The notes under the pieces: model-generated
What the model was told of the DNA's origin: nothing
What the model saw: the letters and a program-made list of their open reading frames with translations, nothing else
Database searches by the model: none
Source of the DNA: a virus
Length of the DNA stretch: 50,464 nt
Virus record (IMG/VR): IMGVR_UViG_3300047552_002926
Span: 1 to 50,464 of that record
Direction: 5' to 3' (one strand)
Part shown: positions 14,290 through 47,555 of the stretch, in pieces
How the letters are laid out: every line of letters starts with the position of its first letter
How positions within the stretch are numbered: the first letter of the stretch is position 1
Program-made: the position numbers and the translations under genes

Positions 14290-14374
14290 TTTGCGCTCCA
14301 TTGCGGTGTTGAACCGCCACCCACTTCCAAATGGGGTGGCAGACCGAAACGAGGTTGGAAGACCGATGGAGCAC

Positions 14375-14500
14375 CGGCGAACCTTGCGGCTCCCCCATTT
14401 CGGCCCACCGTAAACTGGACGCGCCAAGATGTGAAAAAAGCCGCAAAACTAGCAAGTTAGCGGCCTTACACCGCTCCAAACGAGCTTCCAAACTCGATCA
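14375..14500 (-). ncRNA. C4-type antisense RNA controlling the Bro-N gene
   Basis: The minus-strand leader of the Bro-N gene has the layout of phage C4 antisense RNA. Segment a' GCGGTGT (14474-14468) is complementary to ACACCGC (14309-14303), which lies just before the Bro-N GGAG. Segment b' AAATGGGG (14400-14393) is complementary to CCCCATTT (14336-14329). The target region also has its own GCCACCC/GGGTGGC stem near 14317-14341. A possible promoter with -35 TTGACT (14553-14548) and a weak -10 near 14529-14523 lies upstream. In P1 and P7 the processed RNA pairs with the downstream mRNA and blocks ant translation; that action here is inferred from the pairing. Confidence 0.78.
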
Positions 14501-38233: not shown

Positions 38234-38701
38234 ATGGCTACCGAATACGGAAAAAGACTGAAGCAAGCAAGAACTAATGCGGGACTAACGCAGGAGGCTG
38301 CTTCAAAAAAAACAGGCATTAGCCAAAGCACTATCTCAACTGCTGAGCGCCTAGGTAATGGATCGGCTGAGAATCATGCTTACGCAATTGCTTATGGCGT
38401 AAGCCCGATTTGGCTCGCTACTGGCGAGGGGCCAATGCACTACGAAGCCGGAAGCGTAAGTGTTGAACGCCCTTCACCTACGGTGGCTGTGGCGTTAGAT
38501 GCGATAGAGGATGCTTGTGAAAAGCTAAATCAAGAGCAGCGCAAAGAACTCGGCTCTCTGTTGGCCATGTTCGTAGCCAATCCACGCGAATCGATCAAAC
38601 AAGTCATTCTTGAAACGCTTTGTTCGGTAGCGAACAAACCCTCGGAACACACTTCCCACTTAACTAAAAATAGCCAAGAAAAATTTTTGAAAAAGGGTTA
38701 A
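38234..38701 (+). CDS. CI-like prophage repressor (no protease domain)
   Basis: A 155-aa XRE-family repressor with the N-terminal helix-turn-helix RTNAGLTQEAASKKTGISQS (about residues 13-32) and the family ending GVSPIWLATGEGPM. The remainder (residues about 75-155) is helical and has no S24/LexA-like Ser-Lys self-cleavage domain. Induction would therefore need something other than RecA-stimulated cleavage, for example an antirepressor. AAGG lies eight bases before the ATG. It faces right, opposite Cro. Confidence 0.85.
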   Translation: MATEYGKRLKQARTNAGLTQEAASKKTGISQSTISTAERLGNGSAENHAYAIAYGVSPIWLATGEGPMHYEAGSVSVERPSPTVAVALDAIEDACEKLNQEQRKELGSLLAMFVANPRESIKQVILETLCSVANKPSEHTSHLTKNSQEKFLKKG

Positions 38702-38831: not shown

Positions 38832-39218
38832 ATGGTTCGATCTATCTTCGCCTCTGTTTTGTTGGCGGCACTTCTTTTAAGTGGGTGCGCATTGCAGCCA
38901 CCATCAAAAGAAGCGCTTGCAAATGCAGATTACGGAAAGTTTCCAAATGACTACGAGCAGATCGTAAAAAGTCATTACGCACGAAGACTTAAAGACCCAG
39001 AGTCGGTGATTTACAAGGGGATCACATACCCAAGCACATTTTTTCTTGGGTCAAGATTCGATGGAGACACCTATGGGTATCTAACTTGCGCCACCTTGAA
39101 TGCAAAAAATTCATATGGTGGATATATCGGGTACAAAACTGATGCCTTGATTATCAGGAACGGTGTGGTGGTGATGCGAATTGATGATGCTTACTGGTTC
39201 GGGAAGAGGCTTTGTTGA
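38832..39218 (+). CDS. Phage-encoded lipoprotein
   Basis: A 128-aa lipoprotein: signal MVRSIFASVLLAALLLSGC with lipobox LSGC and acylated Cys19. The mature part has AHYARRLKDPES-like helices (IVKSHYARRLKDPESVIYKG) and a beta region (AKNSYGGYIGYKTDALII). Expected in the periplasm or outer membrane. Placed directly after the repressor and followed by its own terminator, it is probably made in lysogens, where such proteins often block superinfection. The region before it (38702-38831) is very AT-rich and probably holds its promoter. Confidence 0.75.
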   Translation: MVRSIFASVLLAALLLSGCALQPPSKEALANADYGKFPNDYEQIVKSHYARRLKDPESVIYKGITYPSTFFLGSRFDGDTYGYLTCATLNAKNSYGGYIGYKTDALIIRNGVVVMRIDDAYWFGKRLC

Positions 39219-39295
39219 ATCGCATGGCTGCCAAACTAAAAGCCCCTCATTAGGTTTGAATAAATTTGCCCTCTGACCTGTCATAACAACCAAAT

Positions 39296-39316
39296 CCCGC
39301 TTCGGCGGGTTTTTTT
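39296..39316 (+). terminator. Terminator after the lysogenic genes
   Basis: CCCGC-TTCG-GCGGG (39296-39309) followed by seven T. It separates the CI/lipoprotein transcript from the next promoter, 46 bp further on. Confidence 0.88.
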
Positions 39317-39361
39317 TCGCCCCGACATCAAGGCTTGAGCAAATTAAGGCAAATATAACGC

Positions 39362-39390
39362 TTGACCGATAACGGATTACCGTTTATATT
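39362..39390 (+). promoter_or_regulatory. Rightward early promoter with operator (pL-like)
   Basis: -35 TTGACC (39362-39367), 17-bp spacer, -10 TATATT (39385-39390). The spacer holds TAACGG-ATTA-CCGTTT (39370-39385), the same operator as at the Cro promoter in the same place. The two promoters are near copies over 29 bp. It should be silent in the lysogen and fire on induction. The predicted start is about 39397. Confidence 0.87.
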
Positions 39391-39396
39391 TCACCC

Positions 39397-40171
39397 ATCG
39401 CAGCAAAACAGCGAAACAACCAAGGCCAAGCGATACGTGGCCTAGCCCGACAGGATGCAAAGGGTGGTTTAGGAGCAAAGGCTCCGCAGCACAAAGTTTT
39501 GCAACGGTACAGAGTGATTAGTGAAGGGTTCAGCGGTTCAGCTCCGTTGATTGTTGGACACCCTATGTAGTAGTAGATAAAAGCCGCTGCTTTATGCGAG
39601 GCCTTCAACCACTTCACTAATCACTCTAAACGGGTGAATGTGCATTGTCAGGCTCACCGTCAAGACCTTTAAAAATCTGACCCTTGCGGTTCTCTACCAA
39701 GCAGACAGCAAGCGTACACATCGGGCGTGATCGGTGTTGAGGTAGGAGCGACCAAGAGAAGAAACGCTGCAAATCATCACAGGCACTGGCTCAGGCTGGT
39801 GTCGATGTGATGGCAAGTTTTCCGAAACCGAGTGATCGGGTTATGTCGGACGCACACACGCCCTAGCGGGTATTGATAACCAAGTACGTGTGCAAATGGC
39901 TCTAGAAATAGAGCCATCACAGAGTCGTCGGCGTGGAATGACACGCATCAAACGAGAGCGCTCTTGTTTGAGTATTTCAGGCACTGAACAAGTAATTCAG
40001 CGAGCCGTGGGTAATGCGGGGCATAAATCCCGCACCAGAAATAGCTGGTGTCAAACCCAGCACGACTCTGCGATGGTGTCTCAACTTGATTGGATTTGCG
40101 GTTGCATCAAGAAGCGCATGCAACTCCAGCACACCATCTTCAATCCAAGCCCTCCCCCGCGAGGGCTTTTT
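39397..40171 (+). ncRNA. Large structured noncoding RNA, GOLLD/ROOL-class candidate
   Basis: About 775 nt between a strong promoter and an intrinsic terminator (AGCCCTC/GAGGGCT then T5, 40147-40171), with no convincing gene. Perfect helices include: GCAAAAC 39403/39496; AGGCCA 39423/39438; GGAGC-AAAG-GCTCC 39472-39485; the 16-bp AGAGTGATTAGTGAAG 39511/39612; CATCACA 39775/39806; a 9-bp stem with GAAA loop 39896-39917; a 12-bp stem 39948-39971; a three-way junction 40006-40064; and GATGGTGT 40072/40131. CTTGAT 40085/ATCAAG 40106 and GTTGC 40101/GCAAC 40120 form a candidate H-type pseudoknot. Size, density of helices and phage setting fit GOLLD or ROOL RNAs. Class assignment is by likeness, not alignment. 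Confidence 0.72.
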
Positions 40172-40180
40172 CACGCACAC

Positions 40181-40267
40181 GCTTTGTTGCACCTCTTGTC
40201 TGTTGAGTGTCCCTCAACCGTCCAGATAAACCCCAACCACTACGACTGGCAGGTGGTGCAACAAAGC
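40181..40267 (+). repeat. 13-bp inverted repeat in the leader of DGR target 2
   Basis: GCTTTGTTGCACC (40181-40193) pairs exactly with GGTGCAACAAAGC (40255-40267), enclosing a smaller GTTGAG/CTCAAC hairpin (40203-40217). The stem ends about 15 bp before the ribosome site AAGGA of the target gene. Transcripts that pass the terminator at 40171 would carry it as a structured leader. Confidence 0.8.
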
Positions 40268-40294
40268 GCTGCAAATTCAACCAAAAGGAAATCT

Positions 40295-40609
40295 ATGTCA
40301 AAAGCCCAATTCATCAAAGAAAACCTCAAGCCAAACGAAACTTATGTCGGAATCCTGATTGGAAAGAACGGTCAGCCAGATCACCACGTAGCACTGCTTG
40401 AGGGTGAGTACAAATTGAACTGGCACGATGCGACGAAGAAAGCCAAAGAGCTTGGCTACATCCTTCCTGATAGACGGACACAGAGTCTGCTGTTTGCCAA
40501 TGCCAAAGAGAAGTTTGCAGCTGATTGGTATTGGTCAAGTGAGCAGTCCTCAGACAGCGACGCTTGGCTTCAGCACTTCGGCTACGGCAGTCAGCACGGC
40601 TACAGCTAG
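40295..40609 (+). CDS. DGR target protein 2, cut short by an amber codon in the VR
   Basis: A 104-aa DUF1566/C-type-lectin-like variable protein. The start is the ATG at 40295 (AAAAGGA upstream). Residues 30-80 match DGR target 1 (WHDATKKAKELGYILPDRRT, SLLFANAKEKFAADWYW). The variable repeat follows from residue 84. Codon TAG at 40607 stands where the template has AAG. Reading past it would add 14 residues (SSERRCCFVRRLVL) and end at 40654, exactly as in target 1. The gene is thus a remote target 6 kb before the RT, probably inactivated, reversibly, by the retroelement's own mutagenesis. Confidence 0.85.
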   Translation: MSKAQFIKENLKPNETYVGILIGKNGQPDHHVALLEGEYKLNWHDATKKAKELGYILPDRRTQSLLFANAKEKFAADWYWSSEQSSDSDAWLQHFGYGSQHGYS

Positions 40610-40642
40610 TCTTCCGAGCGCCGCTGCTGTTTCGTCCGCAGA
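40544..40642 (+). repeat. DGR variable repeat 2 (VR2)
   Basis: 99 bp aligned without gaps to the template repeat. It differs at 14 positions, all of them adenine in the template, spread over twelve codons. The last 33 bp (TCTTCCGAG to CGCAGA) are identical to the template and to VR1 and should be the initiation-of-homing segment. The next 26 bp (40643-40668) are identical to those after VR1 but not to the template flank. Confidence 0.95.
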
Positions 40643-40682
40643 TTAGTCCTTTAAACCTTTAATCCTTTGAATCGGATTAGCC

Positions 40683-41087
40683 ATGCAAGGACTTGACGCG
40701 CATTACGCCGCACAGCTCGACCGCCACCAAGCGCAGATCGACAAGCGGGACTACGAAGACCTAGAGCGCGAGGAAATTGAGCTAGAGGCCGAAACTGAAT
40801 TTGAGCGAATCGCCAAGTCTTGTGATATGGCAGCGCCGATGCCCGAAACAGAGATTCCCGTTATTGAGCGAATCAATGGCAAATACATCAAGACGGGCGA
40901 TAGGCCTCTTGAGTTTGGCGAGCTTATCTACGAACAGATGGGCGACAAGGAACACGCAAACCACCTTCTACGCGCCCTCTTCCTTTGCGCCGCCAAGGGG
41001 AATGTCGAGGCAATCGAAGCAGTCAATGAAATCAAAGAGCTGTACGTCAAAGAACGTGCAGACAAACAACTGGAGCGTGACGAATGA
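40683..41087 (+). CDS. Hypothetical acidic protein
   Basis: A 134-aa protein with a very acidic coiled helix (DLEREEIELEAETEFERI, about 26-43) and a C-terminal helical domain (HANHLLRALFLCAAKGNVEAI). No family recognised. It begins 15 bp after the DGR target flank and opens the chain of ATGA-overlapping genes of this operon. Confidence 0.6.
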   Translation: MQGLDAHYAAQLDRHQAQIDKRDYEDLEREEIELEAETEFERIAKSCDMAAPMPETEIPVIERINGKYIKTGDRPLEFGELIYEQMGDKEHANHLLRALFLCAAKGNVEAIEAVNEIKELYVKERADKQLERDE

Positions 41088-41874: not shown

Positions 41875-42975
41875 ATGACAAATACAGACCTAGCCGTTAA
41901 ATCGGCAGATAGCCTTCCAGTTTTGGCAACGAGTAGCGCATCTCTAATGATGGACTCGGCAAGCCTCGACAAGATGGAGCGATTGGCAAACATGATGGCA
42001 ACCGCCAAATCAACAGTTCCAAATCACTTTAAGGGTAGCGTCGGCGACTGCCTTGCAGTGGTAATGCAATCTGTAACGTGGCAGATGAACCCATTTGCAG
42101 TCGCGCAAAAAACATTCCTAGTAAGCGGTGTTCTTGGATATGAGGCTCAGCTAGTGAGCGCGGTAATCAACAACAGCGGGGCAGTTAAAGATCGCTTTCA
42201 CTTTGAGTGGTTTGGCTCTTGGGAAAAGATTATTGGGAAGTTCAAAAAAGTTACATCCAAAACAAAAAAGGATGACAACGGGAACTTCAAAGAGTACATC
42301 GTCCCTGCATGGGAAATTTCAGACGAACAAGGTCTAGGGGTACGAGTTTGGGCAACTATTAAGGGTGAATCAGAACCCCGAGTGCTTGAGTTGCTGATGA
42401 CGCAAGCGCGTACACGAAATTCAACGCTGTGGACAGAAGACCCAAAGCAGCAGCTTGCATACTTGGCTCAAAAACGATGGGCGCGTTTGTATGCGCCTGA
42501 CGTAATTCTTGGTGTCTACACACCCGACGAACTTGAATCATTCAAGCCGCCCGTCAACATGGGCAATGTGGACGAGGTTGGCTCGGGTGCAAAAGAGGTC
42601 GATGCAGACCAGCTCCTAAAAGAAGGTTGGGCAAAGGCTGCGAAAGGTATGACTGAGTTTGGCCCTTGGTTCAACGGTTTGCCTAAATCATCAGAAGGCA
42701 ACCACCGACCAACTATTGAGCCTCACCGTGCAGCAATGCTTGCAAAAGCCCGAGAGGTTGATAGCTCTCGAACGATAGATGCCGAAGTTAAGGCACCTAA
42801 AGATTCGCAGGTTGTCATTACCTACGCGAAAGTGATGGAAAGCCTCATAGCTGCAAAAAATCACGAGCAGCTTGATTCGGCTGCTGACTTGATCGGTGAG
42901 GTATCAGACCCGAAGCAACGTGCAGAGCTAACCGCCAAGTACGAGGCGCTTCAATCAACTATGCAAGCGGAGTAA
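41875..42975 (+). CDS. recT: RecT-family single-strand annealing protein
   Basis: A 366-aa RecT/Bet-type protein from the ATG at 41875; it anneals complementary single strands in phage recombination. Family patterns are ANMMATAKSTVPNHFKGSVG, AVVMQSVTWQMNPFAVAQK, GYEAQLVSAVINNSGAV and YLAQKRWARLYAPDVILGVY. Its partner exonuclease follows 3 bp later. In this arm of lambdoid phages the recombination pair is transcribed from pL, which fits the promoter at 39.4 kb. The same single-strand handling could bear on DGR homing, but that is speculation. Confidence 0.93.
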   Translation: MTNTDLAVKSADSLPVLATSSASLMMDSASLDKMERLANMMATAKSTVPNHFKGSVGDCLAVVMQSVTWQMNPFAVAQKTFLVSGVLGYEAQLVSAVINNSGAVKDRFHFEWFGSWEKIIGKFKKVTSKTKKDDNGNFKEYIVPAWEISDEQGLGVRVWATIKGESEPRVLELLMTQARTRNSTLWTEDPKQQLAYLAQKRWARLYAPDVILGVYTPDELESFKPPVNMGNVDEVGSGAKEVDADQLLKEGWAKAAKGMTEFGPWFNGLPKSSEGNHRPTIEPHRAAMLAKAREVDSSRTIDAEVKAPKDSQVVITYAKVMESLIAAKNHEQLDSAADLIGEVSDPKQRAELTAKYEALQSTMQAE

Positions 42976-42978
42976 CCA

Positions 42979-43689
42979 ATGCGAATAGTCGAATGCGAAC
43001 AAGGAAGCGAGGAATGGCACAAGGCTCGCGCTGGAGTCATTACCGCCTCCATGTTCAAGGTTGCTAGGTCACGCCTAAAGGTTGGTCCACGTAAAGGTGA
43101 CTTCACTGATGCCAGCAAAAACTACGCTTTCCGAATCGCCATTGAGCGAATCGGTGGGAAGCCTCTCGACGAAGGGTTTTCAACATGGCAAATGAAGCGC
43201 GGCAACGAGCTTGAGCCAAAAGCCAGATCACGACACGAAGAAGAAGCCGCCGTGATTGTTGAACGCGCCGGATTTGTTCTCACGGACGATGGCGTATTTG
43301 GAGCAAGTGCAGACGGGTTGATTGGTGATGACGAGGGTAGTGAATACAAGTGCCTAGTGTCGCCAGAAGGTTTGCGCGAGATTCTGATCAATGACGACAT
43401 AGGTGAATTTCTAGATCAGGTATATGGCTGTCTCTGGATTACAGGGCGTAAGCGTTGGCACTTTGGCCTCTACTGCCCTCCCCTTGCCGACATTGGAAGA
43501 GACTTCACTTTGAAAATTTTGAAGCGTGACGACGACTACATCTTTGAACTAGAAAAAGACTTGATTGATTTCAAGTCAATGGCAGATGGCTACGAGAGAA
43601 CTCTGCGACTAGACATTGAATCAGGAAAGGCGCAAATCAACGATCTGCAAGTTGAAGCCTCCCTGCAAGTTGAAGAAATTGATTTTTAA
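42979..43689 (+). CDS. YqaJ/lambda-exo type exonuclease
   Basis: A 236-aa 5'-3' exonuclease of the YqaJ family, partner of RecT. Active-site residues are visible: GSEEWHKARAGVITAS near residue 10, an Asp in GASADGLIGD, and the Glu-x-Lys of SEYKC (about residues 113-115). It makes 3' overhangs for RecT. Confidence 0.93.
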   Translation: MRIVECEQGSEEWHKARAGVITASMFKVARSRLKVGPRKGDFTDASKNYAFRIAIERIGGKPLDEGFSTWQMKRGNELEPKARSRHEEEAAVIVERAGFVLTDDGVFGASADGLIGDDEGSEYKCLVSPEGLREILINDDIGEFLDQVYGCLWITGRKRWHFGLYCPPLADIGRDFTLKILKRDDDYIFELEKDLIDFKSMADGYERTLRLDIESGKAQINDLQVEASLQVEEIDF

Positions 43690-45305: not shown

Positions 45306-45812
45306 ATGAACATCGGAACAGTAAACATCAACATCACCCACGGTCAATCAAGCGTGGCCCGTGCCTTCATCGAGGCAATGCTCCGCAGCCCAGAAACTGG
45401 CGAATCAGAGTCTATTGAAACAAGTCATGCAGTCCCACAAATCGGCGAATACTGGCAAGGTCAAGGCGGCATCTATGCAGGTATGTGCCGAGGCTTGAAC
45501 GGTGAGCGTGATTACCCATTGATTCTTTTTACCGAAATCACAGAGACAGAGCGAAATTGGAAAGACAGTCTTGATGCCTCAAAGGAAATCACAGCCGATG
45601 GCCACCAAGACTTTCATGTACCAACAAAAGAAGAAAGCGCCCTGCTCTACGCAAACCTGAAAGACAAGTTTGATGCAGATACGTGGTACTGGACGAGTAC
45701 GCAGTACTCAGACAGCCACGCTTGGATTCAGTACTTCGACAACGGCCATCAGAACGACACCAGCAAGTCTTCCGAGCGCCGCTGCTGTTTCGTCCGCAGA
45801 TTAGTCCTTTAA
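45306..45812 (+). CDS. DGR target protein 1 (DUF1566 / C-type-lectin-like)
   Basis: A 168-aa variable protein. The N-terminal 45 residues are a separate segment (MNIGTVNINITHG...). From about residue 48 follows a DUF1566-like fold with DFHVPTKEESALLYANLKDK, TWYWTSTQ and a C-terminal FVRR, as in many DGR targets of the C-type-lectin group. The variable repeat covers residues 133-165, and seven codons differ from the template. No signal peptide or membrane helix, and no virion-attachment part that I recognise. It is the first gene of the cassette target-avd-TR-RT, the same order as in Bordetella phage BPP-1. Confidence 0.9.
   Translation: MNIGTVNINITHGQSSVARAFIEAMLRSPETGESESIETSHAVPQIGEYWQGQGGIYAGMCRGLNGERDYPLILFTEITETERNWKDSLDASKEITADGHQDFHVPTKEESALLYANLKDKFDADTWYWTSTQYSDSHAWIQYFDNGHQNDTSKSSERRCCFVRRLVL
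45702..45800 (+). repeat. DGR variable repeat 1 (VR1)
   Basis: 99 bp aligned without gaps to the template repeat. Seven differences, every one at a template adenine: AAC to CAC, TAC, GAC, GAC, ACC and AGC, and AAT to CAT. The final 33 bp are identical to the template. The flank 45801-45826 is identical to the VR2 flank. Confidence 0.96.
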
Positions 45813-45828
45813 ACCTTTAATCCTTTAT

Positions 45829-46188
45829 ATGCTTCACACCGATCTTCCAATTTATAAAAAAGGCTGCGAGCTTGTCTCGTTGGCCTTTCAGGTTCAAACG
45901 CAAATGCGCCGTGACTTCAAGCGCTCATTAGGCGAGAAGATCACGAGCCATTGCACTGAAATGGTTAATTTGATGGCACTAGCAAATGCATCAAGAGGCC
46001 ATCAACGCGCAGAGCATATTCGGGTACTGCTTGAAACGCAGCACGCAACGACTGTTCTCATGCGCGTATGTCACGACTCAAGACTTGTATCAACAAAACT
46101 TTGGGCTGAGTCAGTGCAATTGCTTGATGGAATTGGTAAGCAAGGTGGTGGCTGGTTGAAATCAAGCAAGAACACGCCTGTTGTATGA
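45829..46188 (+). CDS. avd: DGR accessory variability determinant (Avd)
   Basis: A 119-aa helical protein of the Avd / S23-ribosomal-insert-like four-helix bundle type: DLPIYKKGCELVSLAFQVQT at the start, FKRSLGEKITSHCTEMVNLM and a late ILL-type helix. In known DGRs it forms a basic barrel that binds the RT and template RNA and is needed for mutagenic cDNA. It lies between target 1 and the template repeat; its stop overlaps a possible RT start (ATGA). Confidence 0.9.
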   Translation: MLHTDLPIYKKGCELVSLAFQVQTQMRRDFKRSLGEKITSHCTEMVNLMALANASRGHQRAEHIRVLLETQHATTVLMRVCHDSRLVSTKLWAESVQLLDGIGKQGGGWLKSSKNTPVV

Positions 46189-47555
46189 CGGTCAAGGCCC
46201 TCATTCCCGTGCGTACATTGAATCTGGTTATGCCCCTAGCTCAAAAGGCTACGGATATGCGCTCCACAGAAACTGCCGAACAATCGCTCGGTATGTCTGG
46301 CGCAATTTCTACGTTGATCGGCTCAGACCTTCGGCGTGGCGATGTGAAAAGCATACAAAGACGCAGTACTCAGACAGCAACGCTTGGATTCAGAACTTCA
46401 ACAACGGCAATCAGAACAACAACAACAAGTCTTCCGAGCGCCGCTGCTGTTTCGTCCGCAGAAACAAACTTGCCAACATTCGACCAGCTCGTGCAAGCCT
46501 ACCTAGATTGCAGAAAGAGCAAACGCAACAGCTCAAGTTGCAGGGCTTTTGAAGATCATCTAGAAAGGAACTTGTGCGACGTATATGAAGAGTTGATTTC
46601 TGGCAAATATCAGCCAAGTCGATCAATTTGCTTCGTAATCACGCAGCCAAAGCCAAGAGAGGTTTGGGCTGCTGAGTTTAAGGATAGGGTTGTTCATCAT
46701 CTGCTTTACAACCATATAAGCCCACGCTTTTATGCGAGTTTTATTGCGAATAGTTGCGCTTGCATCCCAACCAGAGGAACCTTATACGCAGCCGAGCGCC
46801 TTGAGCATAGTGTTCGATCTATTACGCAGAACTGGAGCAAGTCGGCGCATTATCTAAAGATGGATTTATCCAACTTCTTTGTTGCGATTGATAAAAACGT
46901 ACTTCGTGAGCAGTTGGCGATGCGGGTCATTGAGCCTTGGTGGATGAATCTTACAGAGTCGATACTTTTTCACGACCCTCGCTTAAATGTGGAGGTCAGA
47001 GGAAACGGCAAGACTCTTGCGCTTGTGCCGCCTCATAAAAGCCTGTTCAATGCGCCTGATCACTGCGGGTTACCGATTGGAAATCTAAGCAGTCAGTTTT
47101 TTGCAAATGTTTATCTTGATGCCCTTGACCAATATTGCAAGCACAAGATTGGCGCAAAGCATTACGTTAGATATGTTGATGACTTCATCATCCTTCATGA
47201 GTCAGCCGAGTGGCTAAACGATGCATTAAGACGAATTACAGAATGGCTACCACTTCGACTTGGTGCAAATTTAAACCCGAGAAAAACAATATTGCAGCCA
47301 ATCCATAGAGGCATCGACTTTGTTGGGCACGTTATCAAGCCTTGGCGCAGAACAACAAGAAAACGAACGATTAGAACGGCACTCAGCCGGATTAGATCAA
47401 TTTCAGACGATGAAACATTTGAAACTGGAAACAGCTATTTAGGGCTTTTTGGTCAAGCAAGCCATAGCCATTCAGACCGCGCACAAATTGCAAACGCATT
47501 GCGATTGCGTGGTCACTCAGTCCAGCAGGACTTAACAAAGATTTTCAGAAAGTAG
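46185..47555 (+). CDS. DGR reverse transcriptase
   Basis: RNA-directed DNA polymerase that copies the TR RNA with errors at adenines. On the full frame (456 aa) the motifs are: PREVWAAEFKDRVVHHLL near 157-174, LKMDLSNFF with Asp227, GLPIGNLSSQFFANVYLD (295-312), RYVDDFIIL with the catalytic YVDD at 330-333, and FVGHVIKPW near 379. No maturase or endonuclease domain is present, so it is not a group II intron RT. The start is uncertain. The ATG at 46185 overlaps the avd stop in the style of this operon and would put the TR inside the coding frame. TTG at 46470, eight bases after the TR, gives 361 aa, the more usual DGR RT size. Confidence 0.94.
   Translation: MTVKALIPVRTLNLVMPLAQKATDMRSTETAEQSLGMSGAISTLIGSDLRRGDVKSIQRRSTQTATLGFRTSTTAIRTTTTSLPSAAAVSSAETNLPTFDQLVQAYLDCRKSKRNSSSCRAFEDHLERNLCDVYEELISGKYQPSRSICFVITQPKPREVWAAEFKDRVVHHLLYNHISPRFYASFIANSCACIPTRGTLYAAERLEHSVRSITQNWSKSAHYLKMDLSNFFVAIDKNVLREQLAMRVIEPWWMNLTESILFHDPRLNVEVRGNGKTLALVPPHKSLFNAPDHCGLPIGNLSSQFFANVYLDALDQYCKHKIGAKHYVRYVDDFIILHESAEWLNDALRRITEWLPLRLGANLNPRKTILQPIHRGIDFVGHVIKPWRRTTRKRTIRTALSRIRSISDDETFETGNSYLGLFGQASHSHSDRAQIANALRLRGHSVQQDLTKIFRK
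46364..46462 (+). repeat. DGR template repeat (TR)
   Basis: 99 bp rich in AAC codons (a run of four AAC then AAG near 46414-46428). Both variable repeats match it except at adenines, so it is the non-variable donor. Its 3' flank diverges from both VR flanks right after CGCAGA. It lies between avd and the RT core, inside the long open frame of the RT. Confidence 0.96.

Follow-up and report, generated by a model that had tools for sequence, protein, structure and literature searches.

Does the stretch of about 775 nt at the head of an early operon in the viral record IMGVR_UViG_3300047552_002926 specify one giant structured RNA, or does its apparent ornateness have another origin? An earlier note, made from the letters alone, had proposed the former, with GOLLD and ROOL as the closest class. 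We analysed the region 39397-40171 within the window, i.e. the whole stretch of 50,464 nt, which also carries an integrase, a terminase, a capsid gene and a diversity-generating retroelement (DGR). The features on which the first part of the analysis rests are as follows.

38234-38698, HTH regulator
39362-39390, + strand, sigma-70-type promoter TTGACC-17-TATATT (10 of 12 consensus positions matched), overlapping the operator palindrome AACGGATTACCGTT
39511-39627, + strand, domain with a perfect closing helix of 16 bp (39511-39526/39612-39627); blastn of the gathered loci gave no relative
39775-39812, + strand, long hairpin CATCACAGGC...GTCGATGTGATG
39896-39917, + strand, 9-bp hairpin with a GAAA loop, immediately upstream of the module described below
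40148-40171, + strand, intrinsic terminator AGCCCTCCCCCGCGAGGGCTTTTT, read directly from the letters
40180-40268, + strand, long inverted repeat CGCTTTGTTGCACC/GGTGCAACAAAGCG, between the terminator and the first gene
40295-40609, + strand, first gene 3′ of the leader, its 3′ end being a DGR variable repeat
41875-42972, RecT, in the early recombination operon downstream of 39397-40171
42979-43686, YqaJ, in the same operon

Coding content, promoter and folding of the region

The position of the promoter places the transcript start (+1) at about 39397. The only long open frame reaching into the region begins with GTG and runs from 39890 to 40609 through its 3′ part; it has no Pfam match, and a translated gene in that frame was ruled out on this ground. 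The likely start of the first gene is 40295, behind an AAAGGA-type ribosome site. The region 39397-40171 is thus noncoding by prediction, no sign of a gene being found inside it. Folding of these 775 nt gave a minimum free energy of -283.2 kcal/mol against -243.7 +/- 7.8 for shuffled sequences (z = -5.08). Perfect Watson-Crick stems of at least 9 bp, formed within 150 nt, numbered 4 against an expected 0.32 (maximum of 2 in 300 shuffles). When 120-nt segments were folded, the excess was patchy and the majority of segments were not significant, so that the surplus of structure comes from a few long helices and is not uniform. The earlier description of a strongly structured noncoding RNA with a 16-bp helix and a 9-bp GAAA stem, lying between a strong repressor-controlled promoter and an intrinsic terminator, therefore stands. 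So does its placement at the head of a pL-like operon (here one with RecT and YqaJ) and next to a DGR target.

It may be noted that CCATC at 39914-39918 can pair within the GAAA hairpin or, alternatively, with GATGG at 40072-40076. The latter has a further potential partner in ACACCATC at 40131-40138, so that a three-way switch beside the terminator is possible. The DGR variable repeats in the window are at 40543-40642 and 45642-45826; in the first, an AAG of the template reads TAG, an apparent adenine change by which the target protein is shortened. Genes of early operons downstream of leaders in two other loci (L106 and L085) have long runs of GGCTCCGGCTACGGC-type repeats that give Gly-Ser/Tyr/Asp repeats.

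Comparison with catalogued RNAs

When 39000-40700 was scanned permissively with all 4227 Rfam families, nothing relevant was listed up to E = 10. Covariance models were a check that the earlier note had proposed for its suggestion of a divergent GOLLD. The GOLLD (RF02032) and ROOL (RF03087) models, run directly on the record, gave no match at E ≤ 10, the ROOL search being one in which no positive control rang. The YrlA model (RF02553) likewise matched nothing in the window at E ≤ 10; YrlA is a bacterial Y RNA that mimics tRNA and has been reported from bacteria and phages. Membership in ROOL or YrlA was rejected on these searches. For GOLLD it was rejected because the model of the conserved 3′ domain is unmatched and because, among the gathered loci, there is no single conserved RNA of about 800 nt but three short stretches with relatives. 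GOLLD RNAs are often longer than 800 nt, have a universally conserved 3′ region, are encoded by phages or prophages and often lie near tRNA islands (PMC12286853). Our region resembles GOLLD and ROOL in kind, these being large structured noncoding RNAs of phages and prophages with loop-loop contacts (RF02032, RF03087; PMC12286853). It differs in that each of those is a single conserved RNA of 500-800 nt, whereas here a mosaic contains a module of about 100-300 nt and gives no sign of multimers.

Elsewhere in the window a C4 antisense RNA (14332-14415, - strand) scores above the Rfam gathering score. Also, an Rfam RT-15 RNA at 46172-46363 ends exactly at the start of the DGR template repeat (46363-46462), and from this abutment RT-15 looks here like the 5′ part of the DGR template RNA.

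Mosaic composition of the leader

On blastn of the region against all gathered loci, relatives were found for three stretches only: 39390-39481, 39655-39765 and about 39906-39954, the last being the 5′ side of the module. The first two belong to the following leader elements.

39390-39489, + strand, conserved 5′ leader element, with TTCACCCATCGCAGC across the discriminator and +1, then hairpins
39398-39401/39411-39414 (UCGC/GCGA), 39424-39442 and 39472-39485, + strand, hairpins of the 5′ leader
39655-39765, + strand, boxA-containing stretch, with the boxA-like GACCTTTAAAA at 39664-39674

Relatives of 39390-39481 are present in nine other phage loci at 72-84% identity over 73-94 nt. Covariation in this leader is moderate (11 sequences; 13 double-changed cells against 5.8 after shuffling). 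In about 74 viral loci TTCACCCATCGCAGC follows operator-type promoters of unrelated sequence, and in these a boxA-like CGCTCTTTAACAA often lies 30-65 nt behind it. The stretch 39655-39765 matches the viral locus L003 at 65% identity (E = 0.001 to 3e-6, depending on the search space) and, by eye, is also distantly related to L002; boxA-type sites are present in its relatives. The boxA-like site of the window is close to that of L085 (GGTCTTTAAAAATCTGA) and conforms to the boxA consensus near the predicted transcript start. The region is like phage nut and put sites and rRNA boxA leaders in that a transcript which is early or untranslated has a boxA-type sequence at its head, but unlike nut sites it has no boxB-like hairpin that we could identify.

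The same pieces recur in other arrangements. In Acidovorax phage AP1 the order is the same leader, boxA, a module of the second subtype, a small gene and a module of the first subtype, and L002, L003, L049, L076, L084 and L471 hold the same pieces in other combinations. The region is accordingly read as a mosaic of separately inherited RNA elements and not as one conserved giant RNA. The earlier idea of a new class survives in part: the region does lie outside the known classes, but not as a single molecule of 775 nt. Two further spacers recur among the loci. The structured GCCGACAGGCGAGTTACCC ... GGGGTACTT ... GGCGAGCCCTTAACGCATCA is found in L003, L049 and L076, which have the same leader type, and a third recurring spacer, CGCGAAAGCCGCGCGACAGACGGCATGGGATTCAAGTTGGCCGATGGCTGCGGGAG, is found in L001, L013, L084 and L471.

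Anatomy and covariation of the module

Copies of the module were found in three ways: from the 5′ arm (GGCGTGGAAGGACACGC), from the 3′ arm (AGCCGGTATCAAGCCCGGC) and with a covariance model. At least 154 copies, mostly on viral contigs, satisfy the structural descriptor, which makes the abundance a lower bound. The order of parts is an outer helix, a C, a 5′ arm, a variable middle, an A, a 3′ arm and the second strand of the outer helix, which the 3′ arm joins with a junction of zero nt. Among the copies listed, the outer helix is of 7-20 bp (mostly 7-9 bp) with no conserved sequence, the 5′ arm has a 5-bp stem and the loop GANGGA, the 3′ arm has a 5-bp stem and the loop UNUCRANY, and the hypervariable middle (hereafter the payload) is of roughly 30-190 nt. 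The copy in the window is laid out as follows.

39920-40070, + strand, module copy, outer helix 39920-39928/40062-40070
39931-39946, + strand, 5′ arm, loop GAAUGA
39947-40042, + strand, variable middle
40043-40061, + strand, 3′ arm, loop UGUCAAAC

The outer helix was tested on 73 distinct copies among the matches listed, chosen by the 5′ 17-mer and the 3′ hairpin motif only; as no outer helix was required of them, the test avoids circularity. All 7 positions pair in 63 of the 73 copies and at least 6 of 7 in 72 (mean 6.84 of 7), against 2.6-3.4 paired positions in shifted registers and about 2.3 of 73 copies with 7 of 7 when partners are shuffled. In an alignment of 64 copies that excludes the window, double changes occur in 15 of 17 pairs and in all three helices, and covariation is 0.593 against 0.143 after shuffling. 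An arm that served as search pattern is fixed by construction, and the conservation of each arm was therefore judged from the opposite search only; the 5′ arm shows compensated variation among copies located through the 3′ arm. In 184 kb searched with the model R2, which was built from the same 64-copy alignment, the window copy is recovered at 39922-40068 (E = 8.4e-8). The window copy has every feature of the family except for one deviation in a loop (GAAUGA, not GANGGA). Compensatory changes, by which the earlier note had wished its helices to be judged, are thus strong in the 151-nt module and moderate in the 5′ leader, whereas the other helices have no relatives among the gathered loci.

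We hold the anatomy of the module and its standing as a family with high confidence. When 12 loci bearing canonical copies were compared with Rfam, tRNA was the sole match, and 7 loci searched more permissively (E ≤ 5) gave nothing at the modules; the family is absent from Rfam 15 and apparently uncatalogued. Also, no paper with this layout was found among open-licence papers. tRNA-like phage RNAs already exist as a kind, and hence the module is not categorically new.

Resemblance to tRNA and a second subtype

The consensus of the tRNA T-loop is UUCRANY. The 3′ loop of the module, UNUCRANY, keeps its U, C, R, A and final pyrimidine with one extra nucleotide. The outer helix is continuous with this T-arm-like hairpin, as the T-arm stacks on the acceptor stem in tRNA and tmRNA, and the 5′ hairpin lies opposite, two nucleotides behind the outer helix and with GG in its loop, as in a D-arm. 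Unlike tRNA, the module has a loop of 8 nt instead of 7, no CCA, and a variable segment of 30-190 nt in place of the anticodon domain. Neither the Rfam tRNA model nor ARAGORN recognises it. The module as a tRNA proper was rejected on these grounds (model recognition, a 7-nt T-loop, a CCA end), and a CCA or aminoacylatable tRNA-like end was ruled out since nothing is conserved 3′ of the outer helix. The resemblance is one of layout, and the loop-loop contact in the main subtype is a putative one.

In a second subtype the two arm loops are complementary over 6 bp: AGGCUGAU faces AUCAGC in L057, L058 and L293. There is apparent covariation, with UGCUGA/UCAGCA in L136 and UGCGAU/AUCGCA in L471, in what is a noisy list, the subtype having been drawn from the top entries of a loose descriptor. 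This subtype supports the predicted contact between the loops.

T4 species 1 RNA (rnaC), a stable phage RNA in a tRNA cluster, also has a T-arm-like hairpin at its end, but model R1 has no match there and no GANGGA 5′ arm was seen; T4 rnaC and rnaD were ruled out as members, as model R1 does not match them. tRNA or tRNA-like genes lie near several module copies. A tRNA of 148 nt in L166 (3795-3942, - strand) has a CCA end and a long insertion that replaces the usual middle; it is separated from a module copy by a few hundred nt and may connect tRNA and the module in evolution.

Genomic context and alternative explanations

The module lies outside predicted genes in 142 of the 154 copies listed, by a rough gene prediction. 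It is on the strand of the neighbouring genes in 121 of the 153 copies listed and antisense in 32, gene orientation being taken from a composition score that is likewise rough. Of the 149 copies listed, 25 have a promoter-like -10 site whose end is 0-9 nt upstream of the outer helix, against 5.0 per average 10-nt bin (p about 1e-10); the commonest distance, 6 nt, would put +1 on the first base of the outer helix. Such promoters are commoner in the antisense copies (12 of 32 against 13 of 121 among the copies listed, p = 0.0008). Taken together, the strand bias, the aligned promoters and their excess in antisense copies point to an RNA able to stand alone. Terminators after the module are not above chance in the copies listed. 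The payload has no excess of complementarity to its own contig, by which an antisense role against the phage was ruled out, and has little structure (z = -0.45), so that nothing in it points to a partner.

Well-formed copies are, among others, on contigs of Chromobacterium, Bordetella, Alcaligenes, Methylobacterium, Ancylobacter and Granulicella and of Anaerolineales and Verrucomicrobiota MAGs, with 1-3 copies per genome. Only 3 of 200 Burkholderiales genomes have the module, a low prevalence that argues against a host gene and fits a prophage-borne element. With a stretch of L171 as query, Bordetella phage IFTN2 matched over 40% of the query at 88.6% identity; in that phage the related region is flanked by repressor genes and RecE/RecT genes, and the module scores weakly in it.

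The boxA data bear on the reading that leader, boxA and module form together a nut- or put-like site acting in cis, at which the polymerase is made to read through terminators such as that at 40148-40171. At least seven leaders of early operons (L001, L013, L049, L076, L084, L085, L350, L471) have a boxA-like site some 5-25 nt upstream of the module, and in L001-L003 and the window a terminator stands directly ahead of the first gene, as this reading would have it. But a boxA-like match within 45 nt of the module occurs in just 6 of the 147 copies listed, the boxA of the window is about 245 nt before its module, about one fifth of the copies run antisense to the neighbouring genes, and for many a promoter sets +1 at the module. 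The rarity of nearby boxA suggests that it is a property of the leaders of early operons rather than of the module itself; as the majority of copies have neither a strict promoter of their own nor a nearby boxA, neither feature defines the family. We regard antitermination in cis by the module as doubtful.

A processing signal, whereby RNase P (or RNase III at a long outer helix) would cut at the acceptor/T-arm stack and so separate or stabilise early mRNAs, appears unlikely. RNase P measures an acceptor/T-arm stack of 12-13 bp, which is what an outer helix of 7-9 bp or more and the 5-bp T-like stem would provide. Many copies are packed between genes, from stop codon to helix and from helix to start codon, and phage tRNA genes are close by in some loci. 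Against this, a subset of copies apparently starts transcription at the helix, leaving nothing for RNase P to remove, the module has no CCA and a loop of 8 nt, and the large variable payload is not accounted for.

Unrelated phages have inverted outer arms that are unrelated in sequence, and this, together with shuffling among operons and a hypervariable cargo, might also suggest a DNA-level element, i.e. a site of recombination or a mobile cassette bounded by inverted ends, whose functional form would be the hairpin of its single strand; the strand preference of the copies, promoters that align +1 to the helix, the T-loop-like motif and the failure to see any shared flanking target sequence make this highly improbable. 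As for a divergent GOLLD- or ROOL-like giant RNA assembling into cages, the size, phage location and strong folding of the region and the complementary arm loops of the second subtype (kissing loops are used by GOLLD and ROOL too) are outweighed by the unmatched models and the mosaic composition, and this reading is largely refuted.

Proposed function and significance

Our preferred reading, to which we give a probability of about 0.5, is that 39397-40171 is a leader mosaic carrying a predicted tRNA-shaped RNA that acts in trans. The segment would be the untranslated leader of the repressor-controlled early operon of a temperate phage, composed of the conserved 5′ leader, the boxA site and one copy of the tRNA-elbow-like module. 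In the module, an acceptor-like outer helix would stack on the T-arm-like 3′ hairpin, with the D-arm-like 5′ hairpin facing it. The boxA would recruit NusB/S10 and the polymerase would thereby cross the long untranslated stretch. This putative antitermination step is based on the site at 39664-39674 and on a published proposal that NusB/NusE at BoxA protects untranslated rRNA from Rho-dependent termination (PMC4807359). The terminator ending at 40171 would release part of the transcripts as leader RNA. The module, acting in trans as a stable tRNA-shaped RNA, would engage a tRNA-binding host or defence factor, to which the payload would adapt it. As judged from sequence features, action in trans stands at even odds, and the role of a decoy or mimic for a tRNA factor, suggested by the shape, the early expression and the company of tRNA genes, is possible and no firmer than tentative.

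Shuffled modules can together look like one giant ornate RNA, such as had been supposed for this locus, and this matters for the scoring of GOLLD-like candidates. The module itself, a compact RNA family with clear covariation found on phage contigs and in several bacterial phyla, is a defined object for study. Anti-host functions concentrate in the early operons of phages, and the structured RNAs there are poorly catalogued. It is conceivable, though we put it forward with reserve, that the family represents a phylum-crossing class of phage RNAs in which a tRNA-elbow scaffold, held by a T-loop/D-loop-like contact or, in the second subtype, by a Watson-Crick kissing pair, may present a hypervariable payload early in infection, and that its members may act on factors of the host or of defence systems as tRNA-shaped decoys or inhibitors.
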